NCBI RefSeq assembly: GCF_015390235.1
Contig: NZ_VUOH01000002.1
Span: 434,001-498,000 of the forward strand
Direction: 5' to 3'
DNA: 64,000 nt
Source of the DNA: Quadrisphaera sp. INWT6
GTDB lineage: Bacteria > Actinomycetota > Actinomycetes > Actinomycetales > Quadrisphaeraceae
The notes below the pieces were generated by a model. The model worked only from the letters and a program-made list of their open reading frames with translations, did not search any database and was not told the DNA's origin. The translations under genes and the position numbers were made by a program. The number at the start of each line of letters is the position of its first letter. Within the stretch, counting starts at the first letter, position 1. Below, piece after piece: positions 753 to 58,449 of this stretch.

Positions 753-877
753 TGACCGCGGTCACCTGGCGCGCTGACCGCGGTCACCTGGCGACCTGGC
801 CTCCTGGGCGTCCGGCACGCCACCTGACCGCGGTCAGCGGCGTGGGTGACCGCGGTCAGCTGGGGTGACCGCGGTCA
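753..877. repeat. TGACCGCGGTCA palindrome cluster A (5 copies)
   Basis: Five perfect copies of the 12-bp palindrome TGACCGCGGTCA start at 753, 775, 825, 847 and 866, giving steps of 22, 50, 22 and 19 bp. Flanks such as CCTGG on the right are also repeated. The cluster lies between the starts of a minus-strand hypothetical gene and a plus-strand small gene. The same palindrome recurs in three other intergenic clusters in this window (52.1, 53.4 and 58.2 kb). Confidence 0.9.
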
Positions 878-50396: not shown

Positions 50397-51758
50397 TCAG
50401 CTCGCGGCCTGGACGTTGTCCGGGCCGACGATGCCCTCGAGGGCCTCGTCGTAGGTCTTCGCAGCCTCGGCGGGCGTGGCGCTGCCGGTGACGACCGACT
50501 CCACCGCGACCTGGATGTTGCTGGAGATCTGCGAGTAGTCCGGCGTGGCCGGGCGGAAGTGCGTGACCGGCACCAGCGAGGAGAAGAACTCGAAGGAGGG
50601 GTTGTAGCTCAGGTACTCCGGGTCCGTGGCGACGTCCTTGCGGACGGCGATCTGGCTGGCCTCGGTGCCGTACTTGAGGGCGTTCTCCTTGCTCAGCGCG
50701 GTGCTGACGAAGTCGAACGCGGCCTGCTTGTCAGCGGCGTGCTGGCCCACGGAGAGCAGCCAGCCACCGGACATGGAGGTGGAGCCGGGGGCCTGCCCGG
50801 TCTGCGTCGGCATGGGGACCATGCCCATGGTCTGCTGCCACTCGGGCCAGGCGTTGTCGCCGCTGAGCCACTGGCCCGGCAGCCAGGAGCCGTCGATCGC
50901 GATGGCGATCTTGCCCTGCGGGATGAGGGTGGTGCTGACCTGGCTGCCCAGGGTGGAGTCGAGCGCGAGGTCCTGGCTCGGACCGAGGCCCTCGGAGAAC
51001 ACCGACTGGTAGAAGCCCAGGGAGTCGGAGAAGCCCTTGGTGCCGGTCTCCCACTTCTTGCTGCTCGTGTCGTACAGCTCGTCGTCGGTGCCGTACATCA
51101 GCATCTCGAAGCCCTGCATGGAGGTGGCCTCGCCGGACGCCTTCGAGCCGTAGATGTTCAGCGGCGTGACGTCGGGGACCTGCGCCTTGATGGTGCGGGC
51201 GGCGGCGAGGACGTCGTCCCAGGTCTTCGGCTGCCAGTCGGTGGGCAGGCCGGCCTGCTGGAACAGGGTCTTGTTGTAGTAGAGGGCGCGGGTGTCCGTG
51301 CCGAGGCTCACGCCGTAGGTCTTGCCGTCGTCGCCGAGGCCGGCCTGCTTGGCCGTGTCGTCGAACTGGCTCCAGTCGGACCAGCCGGAGAGCTGGTCGT
51401 CCAGGGGGGCCAGGTAGCCGGCGGCGGCGTCGGAGCGCACCTGGAAGCTGTCCTCGTAGATGACGTCGGGAGCGGTGTCCTCCGACTTGTTCATCAGGGC
51501 CAGCTTGGTGAAGTACTGGTCGGCCTCGGACTCGACGGGCTTGAGCTCGACGGTCATGCCCGGGTTGGCGGCCTCGTACTCGGACTTCGCCTTGGTGAGG
51601 ACGTCGTCGAGCTGCGTGAAGCTCGCGGTCTTCTGGTAGACCACGGAGATCGTCTTGGCGTCGTCACCGCCCTCGGAACCGCCGGACGAGCCGCAGCCCG
51701 CCAGGGACAGGGTGACGGCTGCTGCTGCTGCGATGCCCGCGAAGCGCGTGCGCTGCAT
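50397..51758 (-). CDS. extracellular sugar-binding lipoprotein of ABC importer
   Basis: A 453-aa family 1 solute-binding protein. The lipobox LAGC with Cys22 follows a short hydrophobic signal, then a Gly/Ser linker ('GSSGGSEGGDD'), so it is a lipoprotein. The mature protein has the two-lobe pattern of MalE-like proteins: 'VVYQKTASFTQLDDVLTKAK', 'DVIYEDSFQVRSDAAAGYLA', 'GVSLGTDTRALYYNKTLF', 'IAIAIDGSWLPGQW' and 'PGSTSMSGGWLLSVGQHA'. It is the first gene of the importer/mannosidase operon, behind a promoter with a perfect TTGACA -35. Confidence 0.93.
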   Translation of the reverse strand: MQRTRFAGIAAAAAVTLSLAGCGSSGGSEGGDDAKTISVVYQKTASFTQLDDVLTKAKSEYEAANPGMTVELKPVESEADQYFTKLALMNKSEDTAPDVIYEDSFQVRSDAAAGYLAPLDDQLSGWSDWSQFDDTAKQAGLGDDGKTYGVSLGTDTRALYYNKTLFQQAGLPTDWQPKTWDDVLAAARTIKAQVPDVTPLNIYGSKASGEATSMQGFEMLMYGTDDELYDTSSKKWETGTKGFSDSLGFYQSVFSEGLGPSQDLALDSTLGSQVSTTLIPQGKIAIAIDGSWLPGQWLSGDNAWPEWQQTMGMVPMPTQTGQAPGSTSMSGGWLLSVGQHAADKQAAFDFVSTALSKENALKYGTEASQIAVRKDVATDPEYLSYNPSFEFFSSLVPVTHFRPATPDYSQISSNIQVAVESVVTGSATPAEAAKTYDEALEGIVGPDNVQAAS

Positions 51759-51841: not shown

Positions 51842-52073
51842 GAGCGCCTTGCGCGTCGTGACCCGTTCGTGATCGTCGCCCGCGGTGCACCACCCCTGAA
51901 CGACCGCCGCGCCGGGAGGTGCCCCCGCTCGGCAGACGGCCCGGTGGAGCTCGACGACCGGACGGCCAGACGCCCGGACGGCCGGACGGCCGGACGGCCG
52001 GACCCAGTCTGCGCCGGGACCCCGAGGGCCGTGGCCGCTCCCCGCCTCCCGGGCCGCCTGCCACTCCCCCAGG

Positions 52074-52268
52074 TGACCGCGGTCACCTGGAGCCCGGGGC
52101 TCCTGGGCCGATGACGCGCCACCTGACCGCGGTCACCTGGAGAGCCGGCGCCCTGGGCCGATGGCACGCCACCTGACCGCGGTCACCCCCAGGGCCGGAG
52201 CAGCGCTGACCGCGGTCACCTGGAGACCCGGCACCCTGGGCCGATGGCACGCCACCTGACCGCGGTCA
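52074..52268. repeat. TGACCGCGGTCA palindrome cluster B (5 copies)
   Basis: Perfect copies start at 52074, 52124, 52174, 52207 and 52257: steps of 50, 50, 33 and 50 bp. The 38 bp between palindromes are also repeated (GGGCCGATGGCACGCCACC-type ends). The first copy is embedded in a longer 22-bp perfect palindrome (52069-52090). Upstream, a GGACGGCC tandem run covers about 51958-52005. The 400-bp region contains no gene. Confidence 0.9.
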
Positions 52269-52278
52269 GCCCACGGCG

Positions 52279-53274
52279 TCAGGCCGCCACGGCCTCCCCC
52301 AGCTGAGCGCGCAGCGCGGCCAGCACGGCGCCCCGCGAGACCGTGTCCGCCCAGGTGAACCGCACGACCACGAACCCCAGCCCCTGCACGAGGTTCTGGC
52401 GACGCCGGTCCCAGACGAAGACGTCCTCGTCCTCGTCGCTGTCGCCCTCGCCGTGGAACCGCCGCCCGTCAGCCTCCCCGAGGAGCGGGCGGTCAGCGTC
52501 GACGCGCAGGGGCACGGGCACGCCCAGCGACTGCGAGAGCTGGCGCCAGTCGAAGGCCAGGTCGGCCGTCGCCACCGTGCGTCCCCACCTGTCCACGACG
52601 GGGCGCTGCAGCTCGACGGGCCGGACCCCGCCGTCCAGGCACCGGCGCCGGACGCGGCTCTCCAGGGGCGACTCGGGCTCCGGGGCCGCGTCCGCCCACA
52701 CGGCGGCAGCGACGGGGTGCCCCGCCCGCCGCTGCGCCGCCTCCCCGGCGCGCAGCAGCTCCGCGCGGGAGACGGCGCCCGTGTGCAGGGCCGAGTCGAG
52801 CACCGCCTGCGCCTGCAGGCGGTCGAGCTGCGGAACGAGGTCCGTCAGCGTGCGCCCGGGGCTCGTGACCCTCAGCCCGTCGAGGTCGACGACGTCGTCC
52901 GGCCGGAAGGTCGCCCGGTGCGGGTGGAGCTGCGGCCGGGCGAGCGCCTTGGCCGCCCTCGAGACGTGCACCACCCCCGCTCGCGGTGCGCCGTGGATCC
53001 CCAGCAGCGCGGCGGCCGTGTGGTGCGACACCGCGGACCCCGGGACCAGCAGGGTGCCTGCGCGCGCCCACGACCGGCGCCGCTCCCGCTCGGTGCGCTC
53101 GGGCTCCACCAGGTACGTGCCGCGCACGAGGGGCACCCACACCTCGGACCGCACCAGGGTGCGGAGGAGCGCCTCCGAGACGCCCGCCTCCTCGACCTGG
53201 CGCGTGGTCAGCACGCCGTCCTGACCGGCCGCGAGGGCGGAGACGGCGCGCAGCGAGGTGGGGCGGTCGGGCAC
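52279..53274 (-). CDS. AbiEi-type antitoxin-domain protein with C-terminal DUF559
   Basis: A 331-aa protein from GTG 53274. The N-terminus is the winged-helix 'LAAGQDGVLTTRQVEEAGVS' followed by 'VPLVRGTYLVEP', as in AbiEi antitoxin-like proteins; the middle has 'SHHTAAALLGIHG' and 'VDLDGLRVTSPGRTLTDLV'. The C-terminal ~100 residues ('PESPLESRVRRRCLDGGV', 'ATADLAFDW', 'LGEADGRRFHGEGD', 'GFVVVRFTWAD') match DUF559, related to very-short-patch-repair endonucleases, with Asp/Glu positions of that fold. Such proteins are usually solitary in actinobacteria; no AbiEii toxin gene is adjacent. It is flanked on both sides by TGACCGCGGTCA clusters, which is unusual. Confidence 0.82.
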   Translation of the reverse strand: MPDRPTSLRAVSALAAGQDGVLTTRQVEEAGVSEALLRTLVRSEVWVPLVRGTYLVEPERTERERRRSWARAGTLLVPGSAVSHHTAAALLGIHGAPRAGVVHVSRAAKALARPQLHPHRATFRPDDVVDLDGLRVTSPGRTLTDLVPQLDRLQAQAVLDSALHTGAVSRAELLRAGEAAQRRAGHPVAAAVWADAAPEPESPLESRVRRRCLDGGVRPVELQRPVVDRWGRTVATADLAFDWRQLSQSLGVPVPLRVDADRPLLGEADGRRFHGEGDSDEDEDVFVWDRRRQNLVQGLGFVVVRFTWADTVSRGAVLAALRAQLGEAVAA

Positions 53275-53376
53275 CCGCCGAGCGTGTCTCCCGTCGAGCG
53301 GGGGTCGCGTCCTCCGCCGGGGTCCTGTGGACGACGGGGCCCCGGCCGCTCCCTATGGGCGGAGCGCTGCCGGGGC

Positions 53377-53650
53377 TGACCGCGGTCACCTGGAGACCGG
53401 GCGCTCTGGGCCGATGGCACGCCACCTGACCGCGGTCACCTGGCGCACTGACCGCGGTCACCGGGCGCACTGACCGCGGTCACCGGGCGCACTGACCGCG
53501 GTCACCTGGCGCACTGACCGCGGTCACCTGGAGACCGCGCGTCCTGGGGCGGTGGCACGCCACCTGACCGCGGTCACCCGGGGGTCCGGAGCAGCGGGGC
53601 CCCCGGTCACCCGGGGGCCCCTGGCCCGCAGCAGTGGTGACCGCGGGTCA
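53377..53650. repeat. TGACCGCGGTCA palindrome cluster C (7 perfect copies plus 1 degenerate)
   Basis: Perfect copies start at 53377, 53427, 53449, 53471, 53493, 53515 and 53565: steps 50, 22, 22, 22, 22, 50. The four 22-bp steps form a head-to-tail tandem of 22-bp units. A degenerate copy with one extra G (53638-53650) overlaps the stop codon of the ROK gene. The cluster fills the gap between the AbiEi-like and ROK genes. Confidence 0.92.
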
Positions 53651-54925
53651 GTGCTGGAGCAGCAGGGTGGCCGAGCGGGGGCTGAAGGCGTCCTCCAGGA
53701 CCAGGCAGCCCGCTCCGACCGCGGCGACGTCCTCGCCGACGCGCGTGCCGCGGACCTCCACGGGGTGGATCGCGCTGGCCACGGCCGCCGCCTGCACCAG
53801 CGGGGGCACCACGCGCAGGAAGGTCGGCTCCAGCGACGACCACACCGGCCCGCAGAAGACGACCTGCTCGACGTCCAGCATGTCCACCAGCCCCGTCGCC
53901 GCCTCGGCCGTGCGCCGGGCGAGGTCGTCCAGGATCCCCGCGGCGCGCTCGTCACCCGCGGCGGCCGCGGCGCAGACGTCGGCGAACGCACCGGCCACGG
54001 ACGCACCGTGCTCGTCGGGGCCGTCGTCGGTGCCGGCGTCGAGGTCCCACCGGCCCACGCCGAGCCGCTCGGCCTCGCGCACCAGGTGCAGCGGGGCGCT
54101 CGTGTCGCCCAGGTGCCAGGCCAGCACCTCCTCCCCCGGGCCGCGCCGCCCGGAGACCACGAGGCCGCCGACCTCCCCGGCGTTGCCGGAGGCTCCCCGG
54201 TGCACCTCTCCCCCGAGCACGATCCCGACGCCCACGCCGGTGCCCAGGTAGAGGACGACGGCGCTGCCGGTGCCCCCCACGCCGCCGGCCCACACCTCGG
54301 CGACGGCCGCGGCGACGACGTCCTTGTCGAGCACCACGGGCAGCCCCGTGGCGGTGGCCAGCAGGTCGCGCACGGCCACCCGGTCCCACCCGGGCAGGTT
54401 CGGGGGGTGCACCACGGCGCCGGCCGCGGCGTCCACGGGTCCGGGCACGGCGACCCCGAGGCCCACCACCCGCTCGCGATCGACCCCGGAGGCCTCGACC
54501 AGCGCGTCGACGTCGCGGGCGACGTCGGCGAGCACCTGTCCCGGCCCCGCGCCCGGCCGCAGCGGGTGTCCGCTGCGCGCCACCACCCGGCCCAGCAGGT
54601 CGAGGACGACGACGGTCACGGCGGCGGGGTCGAGGTGGACGCCGATGGCGTACCGGCCCTGCGCGTCCAGGCGCAGCAGGGTGCGGGGCTTGCCCGGCCC
54701 GCCGCCCTGCTTGCCGGCCTCGACGACGAGACCGGTGTCGAGCAGGCGGCGGCAGATGTTGGAGACCGTCTGCGCCGACAGGCCCGTGAGGCCCGCGAGC
54801 TCGACGCGGCTCAGCCCCTCGGGGTGGCTGCGGATGGCCTCGAGCACCACGACCTGGTTGTAGTCGCCGACGCGCGGCAGGTTGGACCCGCGGCGCACTC
54901 CGGTCGCCGCTGGCCGCTCCTGCAC
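53648..54925 (-). CDS. ROK-family transcriptional repressor/sugar kinase-like protein
   Basis: About 425 aa from a GTG at 54925; upstream continuation of the frame is nonsense. The N-terminal winged helix is 'GLSRVELAGLTGLSAQTVSN' (~40-60). The ROK fold follows: 'IGVHLDPAAVTVVVLDLLG' (~115), 'GLGVAVPGPVDAAAGAVVHP' (~175), 'VVLDKDVVAAAVAEVWAGG' and 'VVLYLGTGVGVGIVLGGEVH' with 'GNAGEVGGLVV'. The Cys cluster that binds zinc in most ROK proteins (CxCGxxGCxE) is absent; the segment reads 'SGRRGPGEEVLAWHLG'. Proximity to the mannoside importer operon makes it a candidate regulator responding to mannose or a derivative. It is divergent from the GT2 gene. Confidence 0.87.
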   Translation of the reverse strand: MQERPAATGVRRGSNLPRVGDYNQVVVLEAIRSHPEGLSRVELAGLTGLSAQTVSNICRRLLDTGLVVEAGKQGGGPGKPRTLLRLDAQGRYAIGVHLDPAAVTVVVLDLLGRVVARSGHPLRPGAGPGQVLADVARDVDALVEASGVDRERVVGLGVAVPGPVDAAAGAVVHPPNLPGWDRVAVRDLLATATGLPVVLDKDVVAAAVAEVWAGGVGGTGSAVVLYLGTGVGVGIVLGGEVHRGASGNAGEVGGLVVSGRRGPGEEVLAWHLGDTSAPLHLVREAERLGVGRWDLDAGTDDGPDEHGASVAGAFADVCAAAAAGDERAAGILDDLARRTAEAATGLVDMLDVEQVVFCGPVWSSLEPTFLRVVPPLVQAAAVASAIHPVEVRGTRVGEDVAAVGAGCLVLEDAFSPRSATLLLQH

Positions 54926-55003
54926 CGCGTCAGGGTGCCACGCCGCGGGCCGGGGCGGCGGACGCGCTGGTCCGAACGCCAGCGGGGGCGGGCCCGGTCG
55001 CCG

Positions 55004-55009
55004 TACCGT
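55004..55009 (+). promoter_or_regulatory. -10 element, leaderless start of GT2 gene
   Basis: TACCGT, then 6 nt (C plus five G), then the GTG at 55016. Confidence 0.6.
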
Positions 55010-55015
55010 CGGGGG

Positions 55016-55690
55016 GTGCGCGCCGTCGAGGACACCTGGGTGGTCGTGCCCCTCTACAACGAGGCGGCCGTGGTCGGCGAGGTGGTCACCGGCCTGCGGC
55101 GGTCCTTCGCCCACGTGGTCTGCGTCGACGACGCCAGCCGCGACGGCTCCGGCGACGCCGCGGCCCGCGCGGGGGCCGTGGTGGTGCGCCACCCCGTCAA
55201 CCTCGGGCAGGGCGCCGCGCTGCAGACCGGCGTCGACTGGGCGCTGTCGCAGCCCGGCACCCGCTTCGTGGTGACCTTCGACGCCGACGGCCAGCACCAG
55301 GTGGCTGACGCCCTGGCCATGGTGGAGCGCCTGCGCTCCGGCGAGGCCGACGTCGTCATCGGCTCGCGCTTCCTCGACGGGCGCACCCGCGTCAGCCCGC
55401 TCAAGCGGGCGGTGCTGCGGGCCGCCGTCGTCCACACGAACGCGACGACCGGGGTGCGCATGACCGACGCGCACAACGGGCTCCGGGCGATGACGCGCGA
55501 GGTGGCCGCCTCCCTCGACATCACCCAGAACCGGATGGCGCACGCCAGCGAGATCGTCGAGCAGATCGGCCGCGGCGGATGGCGCTGGGTGGAGCACCCC
55601 GTCGAGGTCCTGTACACGGACTACTCCGTGGCCAAGGGCCAGTCGGTGCTGAACTCGGTCAACATCGTCACCGAGCTCATCTTCAAGTGA
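55016..55690 (+). CDS. family 2 glycosyltransferase
   Basis: A 224-aa GT-A enzyme: 'WVVVPLYNEAAVVGEVVTGL' at the N-terminus, 'VCVDDASRDGSGDAA', 'HPVNLGQGAALQTGVDWALS' and the metal-binding 'FDADGQHQ' (~88). The C-terminal region 'DAHNGLRAMTREVAASLDIT' and 'YTDYSVAKGQSVLNSVNI' is typical of GT2 enzymes paired with a DUF2304 membrane protein, which follows here. Such pairs probably make polyprenyl-phosphate sugars for envelope polymers or protein glycosylation. The GTG start follows a -10 element directly, so translation is probably leaderless. Confidence 0.9.
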   Translation: MRAVEDTWVVVPLYNEAAVVGEVVTGLRRSFAHVVCVDDASRDGSGDAAARAGAVVVRHPVNLGQGAALQTGVDWALSQPGTRFVVTFDADGQHQVADALAMVERLRSGEADVVIGSRFLDGRTRVSPLKRAVLRAAVVHTNATTGVRMTDAHNGLRAMTREVAASLDITQNRMAHASEIVEQIGRGGWRWVEHPVEVLYTDYSVAKGQSVLNSVNIVTELIFK

Positions 55691-58208: not shown

Positions 58209-58449
58209 TGACCGCGGTCACCTGGCGAGCTGACCGGGGTCACCTGGCGGTGCCTCGGTCCAGGACGCCCCCTCGCTGGGTGACCGCGGTCAGTCGGGGA
58301 GCTGACCGCGGTCACCTGGCGGTGCCTCGGCCCGGGACGCCCCCTGGCGAGCTGACCGCGGTCACCTGGCGGTGCCTCGGTCCAGGACGCCCCCGCGCCG
58401 AGTGACCGCGGTCAGTCGAGGGGCCGCGGTCACCGGCGAGCCGCGGTCA
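58209..58449. repeat. TGACCGCGGTCA palindrome cluster D (5 perfect copies, 3 degenerate)
   Basis: Perfect copies start at 58209, 58281, 58303, 58353 and 58403; a one-mismatch copy (TGACCGGGGTCA) at 58231 completes the series, so steps are 22, 50, 22, 50, 50. Two half-degraded copies follow at 58421 and 58438. The repeated inter-palindrome sequence here contains GGTGCCTCGG and GGACGCCCCC. The cluster lies between the LCP stop and the ferritin-like gene's terminator. Confidence 0.9.

Follow-up and report, generated by a model that had tools for sequence, protein, structure and literature searches.

The window analysed here is a stretch of 64,000 nucleotides from the actinobacterium Quadrisphaera sp. 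INWT6 (contig NZ_VUOH01000002.1, positions 434,001 to 498,000). It carries four intergenic arrays of a 12-bp palindrome, TGACCGCGGTCA, whose copies (dyads) follow one another mostly at steps of 22 or 50 bp. The repeat family is real and genus-wide. Its anatomy and registers recur across species. Among the genomes searched it is restricted to Quadrisphaera, it lies away from promoters, and its arrays keep their positions while copy number changes. As a consensus, the unit is a 26-bp bipartite palindrome with a free central dinucleotide; its half-site is GGTCA-NN-TSCGG, replaced by GGTCA-NN-TGGCG in G000, the window's genome. Units are set in two registers, one of 22 bp in which neighbouring sites have CCGG in common, and one of 50 bp with a 24-bp linker. 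The genomic behaviour, i.e. intergenic location, convergent or same-strand junctions and array turnover, fits repetitive extragenic palindromes (REPs) and bacterial interspersed mosaic elements (BIMEs). We give even chances to the interpretation that this is a new, untagged REP/BIME-like repeat of Quadrisphaera, read as DNA by a putative dimeric protein.

A pattern scan of the window found 22 exact copies of TGACCGCGGTCA, all within the four arrays. Array A (753..877) has five dyads, at 753, 775, 825, 847 and 866 (steps 22, 50, 22 and 19 bp). Array B (52074..52268), 3' of gene 52279-53274, has five at 52074, 52124, 52174, 52207 and 52257 (steps 50, 50, 33 and 50 bp). Array C (53377..53576), between the start of the same gene and the end of the ROK gene 53648-55435, has seven at 53377, 53427, 53449, 53471, 53493, 53515 and 53565 (steps 50, 22, 22, 22, 22 and 50 bp). 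Array D (58209..58414), located between convergent genes, has exact dyads at 58209, 58281, 58303, 58353 and 58403 and a sixth with one mismatch at 58231 (steps 22, 50, 22, 50 and 50 bp). No strand is assigned to the arrays. All four are intergenic by gene calls from a purpose-written script, which missed some genes, e.g. one left of the array at locus L123 that is visible by eye in a sister species. Copy number, clusters, spacing lists (for D with the one-mismatch copy included) and the strictly intergenic location had all been reported in an earlier reading of the sequence only, and each proved correct. The repetition of the sequence between palindromes, also claimed there, was borne out and consists mainly of a 10-bp and a 38-bp spacer. 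The interval 52074-53650 that it had presented as one entry comprises array B, the 331-codon minus-strand gene 52279-53274 and array C, and is not a single feature. With up to two mismatches the window has 38 sites against 7.8 expected (sd 2.5; maximum of 14 over 100 shuffles).

The family was then followed through 99 related genomes, six from Quadrisphaera and 93 from other genera. The six are the window's own genome (G000; 4.2 Mb, 8 contigs, 91% complete) and those of five other species (G001 to G005), of which G005 is the nearest sister species. G000 has 71 exact copies of TGACCGCGGTCA, and a control read backwards has none. Seventy of the copies are in regions that were read: 67 within 12 arrays and three single, one of these genic. 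Exact copies number 7 to 25 in the five other Quadrisphaera species. Outside the genus, each of the 93 genomes has 0 to 10, as against 0 to 2 for the reversed control. Spaced pairs, TGACCNNGGTCA-N8-38-TGACCNNGGTCA, equivalent to steps of 20-50 bp, occur 54 times in G000, 9 in G001, 7 in G002, 9 in G003, 41 in G004 and not in G005. They are absent from the 93 genomes of other genera, and the reversed control gave none across all 99. Thus, five of the 99 genomes have such pairs, all of them Quadrisphaera. Among the pairs listed, which cover G000 and G004 partially, the distances are 22 or 49-50 bp except one each at 32, 33 and 44 bp; steps of 53 bp fall outside the pattern. Among 394 sampled genomes of the class, with G000 as the only Quadrisphaera, ten further genomes hold one or two pairs at scattered distances, none of 22 or 50 bp. 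Random spread, copies throughout genes or a lack of periodicity, which the sequence-only reading had named as the contrary outcome, did not occur genome-wide. The G003 sequence matches Quadrisphaera granulorum DSM 44889 (L098, L106). 'Streptomyces sp. NP160' (G002; L036, NZ_VDMJ01000015.1) groups within Quadrisphaera, and its record name looks wrong.

Phage or plasmid origin of the arrays was rejected because array C had no blastn match among 72,556 plasmid and 50,697 phage records. In viral contigs TGACCNNGGTCANNTGCGG was found in 59 stretches with a single match each, and the paired form in none; we take the single matches for chance, the size of the collection not being at hand.

The make-up of the site emerged from comparison between species. 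The centre of the exact dyad is GC in 65 of 69 G000 dyads and mixed in G001-G004 (GC, GA, TC, GT, AC, CC, GG, TG, CA). Because the centre varies in the other species, the core is TGACC-NN-GGTCA; the 12-bp core proposed originally exists in exact copies, but its two central bases do not belong to the definition. Beyond two free bases each side tends to bear an extra pentamer, the outer arm. The consensus is a bipartite palindrome of 26 bp, CCGSA-NN-TGACC-NN-GGTCA-NN-TSCGG, and in G000 the arm is TGGCG. Among the sides next to a long spacer, G001-G004 have exact TGCGG in 41 of 89 cases and G000 has TGGCG in 31 of 49. Toward the short spacer TCCGG is found on 20 of 69 sides in G001-G004. Identical contexts or the duplicate locus L128 were removed before the spacer, pairing, register, arm and centre counts. 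The 22-bp step matches two 26-bp sites that overlap by a common CCGG, and the 50-bp step leaves a 24-bp linker between sites with the directional core GGCCCAGGAMC. TGGCG arms cannot overlap in this manner because GGCG is not self-complementary. This would explain why the short spacers of G000 are mostly arm-less (TGGCG on 4 of 51 sides) with the 22-bp step kept.

The loci read contain 126 distances of up to 200 bp between successive exact dyads, each identical context being entered a single time. Of these, 91 are exactly 22 or 50 bp; the remaining distances include six at 32, six at 49, five at 72 and four at 53 bp. A spacer profile blind to the dyads, with each locus left out in turn, detected 40 spacers. 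Every one of the 40 has dyads with two or fewer mismatches on both sides; 38 conform to the exact register and two to a 53-bp variant. The regions had been fetched for holding dyads, and dyad-free spacers elsewhere could escape. In the window, 53377..53438 exemplifies the long unit, two dyads with a 38-bp spacer between them. Read on the minus strand, this spacer is GGTGGCG...ATCGGCCCAG...CTCCAGG, the directional core form of the family. Another long unit, 58353..58414 on the plus strand (CCTGGCGGTGCCTCGGTCCAGGACGCC...), has the opposite orientation. Within array C five dyads (53427..53526, no strand assigned) follow at exact 22-bp steps with the near-identical 10-bp spacers CCTGGCGCAC / CCGGGCGCAC. 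From its sequence this run looks like a local tandem duplication.

Next, the placement relative to genes was considered. At a coding fraction of 0.85, 186 of 190 dyads in 44 chains lie outside called genes. The 44 array gaps comprise 19 convergent, 22 same-strand and 3 divergent junctions, compared with 23, 88 and 72 among 183 array-free control gaps of at least 100 bp. Arrays favour convergent and avoid divergent junctions (p 1.5e-5 and 1.2e-5). Ten neighbouring proteins were scanned, and they are mutually unrelated: LytR family, ferritin-like, CtaA family, UbiA family, pyridine nucleotide-disulphide oxidoreductase, ROK, DUF418 (weak), AbiEi_4 twice and one without a match. At L123, L125, L129, L139, L146, L218 and L229 the TGA of a dyad doubles as the stop codon of the adjacent called gene (distance -2). 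A degenerate copy seen in the window at 53638..53650 (no strand assigned; TGACCGCGGGTCA, one base longer) ends in three bases that also serve gene 53648-55435, on the minus strand, as its stop codon. In Phycicoccus sp. Root101 (L072), inspected by eye, a dyad TGA is again a stop codon, and two dyads 23 bp apart each have a TGCGG arm.

Orthologous array loci are L131/L136/L137/L147, L133/L142, L123/L139, L124/L141, L127/L148, L134/L135/L138, L144/L145, L140/L146 and arrays B-C of the window with L149. For each of the nine testable G000 loci (B-C, D, L122, L123, L124, L127, L131, L132, L133), one or more of the other species keep a dyad that has no more than one mismatch; L124 rests on several comparisons combined, and no comparable gap was recovered for A and L130. 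Many other counterparts of these nine loci hold no dyad. In G005, with protein identities to G000 of mostly 90-99% at the genes compared, array D corresponds to one dyad versus six, L127 to one versus four, L131 to one versus 11 and L132 to a decayed pair versus 11. At L133 the 22-50-22 layout is kept in G000 and G003 despite differing spacers and centres. Therefore, we say that array positions are old and that local expansion and contraction are fast. The latter probably proceeds through unequal recombination or template switching between units. In the gap between the CtaA-like and UbiA-family genes of G004 and G001 (L210, L212) inspection by eye showed a second type of hairpin, in which GGGGTGGCCC and its complement enclose a variable part. 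Both sides of its stem are changed between copies, and it occupies the site of an 11-copy array in G000.

The outer arms differ between lineages in concert. When arms were scored to the nearer of TGGCG and TGCGG, 21 of 25 long units of G000 had both arms of the GCG type and none had a CGG-type arm. Of the 44 long units of the other species, 39 had both arms of the CGG type and one both of the GCG type. The difference holds at orthologous loci (L131 and L137, L133 and L142, L123 and L139, L124 and L141, B-C and L149). Either a trans-acting reader shifted its outer specificity or fresh copies replaced old ones genome-wide; correspondingly, the arms of one lineage would have been homogenised or would have tracked a change in the reader protein.

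How does this compare with known repeats? In Di Nocera et al. (2013; PMC3733652), REP families are described as short, high-copy, intergenic palindromes, mainly at convergent or same-strand junctions and often in doublets or clusters. According to the same text there are GTAG- and CGTC-tagged superfamilies and also REP-like families without a tag, the reports of tagged families come mainly from Proteobacteria, and the CGTC REPs have neither a dedicated transposase nor an explained mover. The Quadrisphaera repeats are alike in being short, high-copy, intergenic palindromes that form doublets or clusters, for the most part at convergent or same-strand junctions. They differ in the 26-bp bipartite consensus with its free centre, the 22- and 50-bp registers and the occurrence in a single actinobacterial genus. 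No one-sided GTAG or CGTC tag appears in a consensus built from 69 long units and from 380 sides of dyads. A linked REP-type transposase had been proposed as a check; the Y1 transposase model (PF01797) had no match in the window's genome, the one Quadrisphaera genome searched, and 5 of 14 control genomes were positive.

BIMEs are mosaics of palindromes with fixed linkers which are amplified in tandem at gene ends, and those of Escherichia coli bind gyrase, IHF or Pol I. The Quadrisphaera arrays share with the latter the mosaic of palindromes and conserved spacers, tandem expansion and location at gene ends. They differ from the E. coli elements in having another core, and the window's genome is without a Y1 match. 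The 12-mer TGACCGCGGTCA had no match across 5.39 million open-access papers. The family is not described in the open-access literature that was searched on Quadrisphaera or actinobacterial repeats, REPs and BIMEs, most subscription journals being outside the search. The remark of the sequence-only reading that no described family has this core thus held for the literature and Rfam as searched, although the core alone recurs in other bacteria.

Is the palindrome read as DNA or does it act as a hairpin? Twenty-one degenerate dyads that stand in register with one or two changes have 23 changed pairs: 17 are uncompensated, six are one-sided but pairable and none is compensated. Sixteen of the 23 changed bases are at the outermost positions. 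Selection on a stem would be expected to leave some compensated changes, which are not required of a half-site bound by protein. This, together with the genome-wide difference of the outer arms between lineages, points to a reading as DNA. Covariation inside long units was tested and not found: permutation leaves the pairing of the arms within a unit just as good, and at positions 1-2 the real arms pair less well than permuted ones; the 10-bp spacers are not self-complementary above permuted spacers. The dyads may be double-stranded DNA targets of a dimeric trans-acting protein. Arrays could then serve as BIME-like multivalent platforms at gene ends, with a part in chromosome topology or in the insulation of converging transcription.

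The main rival is that the arrays are RNA or single-strand hairpins, i.e. bidirectional terminators or 3'-end stabilisers, roles proposed for many REPs, and that the fixed steps merely reflect duplication. We consider this possible, at clearly lower probability. The convergent placement agrees with it, as do long stems: L134:5358-5417 folds into a stem of 27 bp (-60.1 kcal/mol, z -13.7), L147 reaches -43.7 (z -5.2), and in the sister species the L131 locus is a single perfect palindrome of 36 bp within a convergent gap of 97 bp. The uncompensated dyad changes and the failure of long-unit arms and 10-bp spacers to pair better than permuted sequence argue against it. So does a separate, strong GC hairpin that was seen by eye beside the arrays D and L133; the sister species retains this hairpin with one dyad. 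Rfam gave no match at gathering score within the window. Of the candidates named initially, then, the REP/BIME-like element fits the genomic behaviour, a protein site is favoured by what the dyads look like, and the RNA hairpin is still a rival.

Several points weigh against a repeat read as DNA. First, the centres of 22-bp doublets are complementary in 28 of 42 cases versus 22.4 expected (p 0.004), an excess that a hairpin would account for and that the DNA-site view does not need. Identical centres are in excess as well (26 versus 21.6, p 0.015), with GC/GC counted as both kinds; among the 18 doublets other than GC/GC four have complementary and two identical centres. Pairs at 50 bp have no excess (p 0.72). 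Perhaps, then, the 22-bp doublet is retained as a larger palindrome, or template switching has perfected it. Second, on the outermost sides of arrays the arms are much weaker (TGCGG on 18 of 66 sides in G001-G004, TGGCG on 7 of 24 in G000). Third, G005 has 20 exact dyads (reversed control 3) yet not one spaced pair, and a vital role in array form is therefore unlikely. Fourth, the junction counts treat orthologous loci of several species separately, and the conservation counts are biased upward because the regions were selected for dyad content. Finally, the protein that would bind the dyads is putative.

A more specific version would make the arrays chromosome-wide multivalent sites for a dedicated TetR-, ParB- or SlmA-like protein, whose outer specificity changed in one lineage and was followed by the dispersed sites. 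The change would have been either from TGCGG to TGGCG in the lineage of the window or the reverse in the others, with the inner TGACC/GGTCA constant. We regard this proposal as tentative and rather improbable as it stands.

RAYTs are thought to spread or amplify REPs. By analogy, the gene flanked by arrays B and C (52279..53274, minus strand) could be a nuclease-linked factor that spreads or amplifies the repeat, an idea we hold to be very unlikely. Its protein has an AbiEi_4 N-terminal domain (PF13338). The C-terminal half is without a Pfam match, and the window's own protein gives no direct Pfam evidence of a nuclease; of five homologues scanned, two distant ones match or approach the nuclease-like models DUF559 / MTES_1575 in this half. 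The G004 orthologue (L149:3629-4618, 62% identity) is also flanked by arrays on both sides. G000 and G004 are the only two of six genomes in which this gene is flanked by arrays, and they have the highest pair counts (54 and 41 versus 0-9 elsewhere). Further, the segment 51944..53641 (array B, gene and array C) has no counterpart in G005, where 81 unaligned bases are between the aligned blocks. However, the genus has 15 matches to the protein, and for the remaining 13 the surrounding 2.5-3.9 kb contain no exact dyad. Among the scanned array neighbours the domain is confined to this gene and the G004 orthologue. By rank, a coincidence of two genomes in six would arise by chance with a probability of 1 in 15. 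The association with pair number is a lead, not a finding. No viral home and no solved-structure relative by sequence was found for the protein.

The locus has further peculiarities. In four of six species a relative of the protein occupies the gap between the ROK gene and gene 50397-51758; both orientations occur, and identities go down to 35% (L175, L176, L177). In G002 this gap contains perhaps a remnant, as judged by eye. This reads as a recurrent or long-lived place of insertion. Ahead of array B, at 51960-52010 of the window, there are short tandem runs of CGGACGGC, and at the same place G005 has a different short tandem, GGCAGACGCCC.

The same core is used in other bacteria. A scan of named genomes, in which look-alikes were many, is reported here for the 106 stretches listed and the 110 close pairs among them. 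In this set (L016-L121) 47 of the 110 pairs are 41-42 bp apart and have the 18-mer TCTTGACCGCGGTCAAGA (at least one copy required). At L017, the sole locus checked, one palindrome is at the end of an open reading frame without a Pfam match; its partner lies in the gap that precedes a repC gene, whose product has the RepC N-terminal domain. The published parS sites of RepABC replicons are 14-nt TTAACAG/CTGTTAA anchors that frequently come as doublets, with distances of 11 to 42 bp (PMC5613091), and such doublets are described as RepB/ParB anchors (PMC5613091, PMC9040568). The TCTTGACCGCGGTCAAGA doublets resemble the Rhodobacterales sites so described in spacing range and in the repC neighbour at L017. 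They differ in having CTT...AAG versus the GTT...AAC of the parS consensus given in PMC9040568. Perhaps they are RepB anchor sites of one RepABC compatibility group. Compared with the same descriptions, the Quadrisphaera arrays have other arms and spacing and are dispersed over several contigs between unrelated genes. The array neighbours that were scanned are not repABC genes, and the dyad surroundings are not TT...AA as in the GTTNNNNGCNNNNAAC consensus.

Among the matches listed, exact pairs spaced 21-23 bp apart number 29, and three of these come from Quadrisphaera. Nineteen of the 29 are within 1.2 kb of a TetR helix-turn-helix signature, a figure with no background rate behind it. At L045 and L068, confirmed by Pfam, TGACCGCGGTCA pairs at 22 bp are located between TetR and Flavodoxin_2 genes; a third, degenerate copy is often present at these and similar pairs. 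Such sites are a probable operator set. The core is thus plausibly used by two unrelated kinds of dimeric protein, and this makes a protein reader in Quadrisphaera likely. Alternatively, the arrays might be ordinary operators of a transcription factor for the adjacent genes, like the TetR-linked 22-bp pairs of Rhodobacterales. The core and the 22-bp pairs beside TetR and Flavodoxin_2 genes are the same, but those operators have AT-rich spacers, two or three copies and a position at gene starts, whereas the Quadrisphaera arrays are at 3' ends. Only three of 44 array gaps are divergent, the scanned neighbours are unrelated to one another and none of the ten has a TetR_N domain, and in sister species many of the same genes are without arrays. 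We find this explanation hardly credible.

Equally little speaks for sites of a serine recombinase: 12-bp half-sites around a 2-bp centre, here variable, are the layout of invertase crossover sites, and resolvase-domain matches, some of them fragments, roughly track pair numbers (4, 9, 3, 2, 0 and 0 in G000, G004, G003, G001, G002 and G005; n = 6 genomes, and a lead of the same rank as the AbiEi-like gene), but G002 has seven pairs and no PF00239 match, i.e. a site-bearing genome without a cognate enzyme (the genomes are drafts and this is not final), no listed array place is within 10 kb of a listed resolvase match, and overlapping 22-bp sites could hardly be bound together.

If the reading with a dedicated protein were true, Quadrisphaera would offer a natural experiment in the co-evolution of a chromosome-organising protein and its sites. 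Here is a small actinobacterial genus with a simple symmetric site, measurable registers, a nearest sister species devoid of pairs and a lineage-wide difference of the outer arms. These features, together with the missing Y1 match in the window's genome, make two open questions testable within one genus: which factor recognises palindromes of the REP kind, and by what route scattered copies change together when no transposase is evident.

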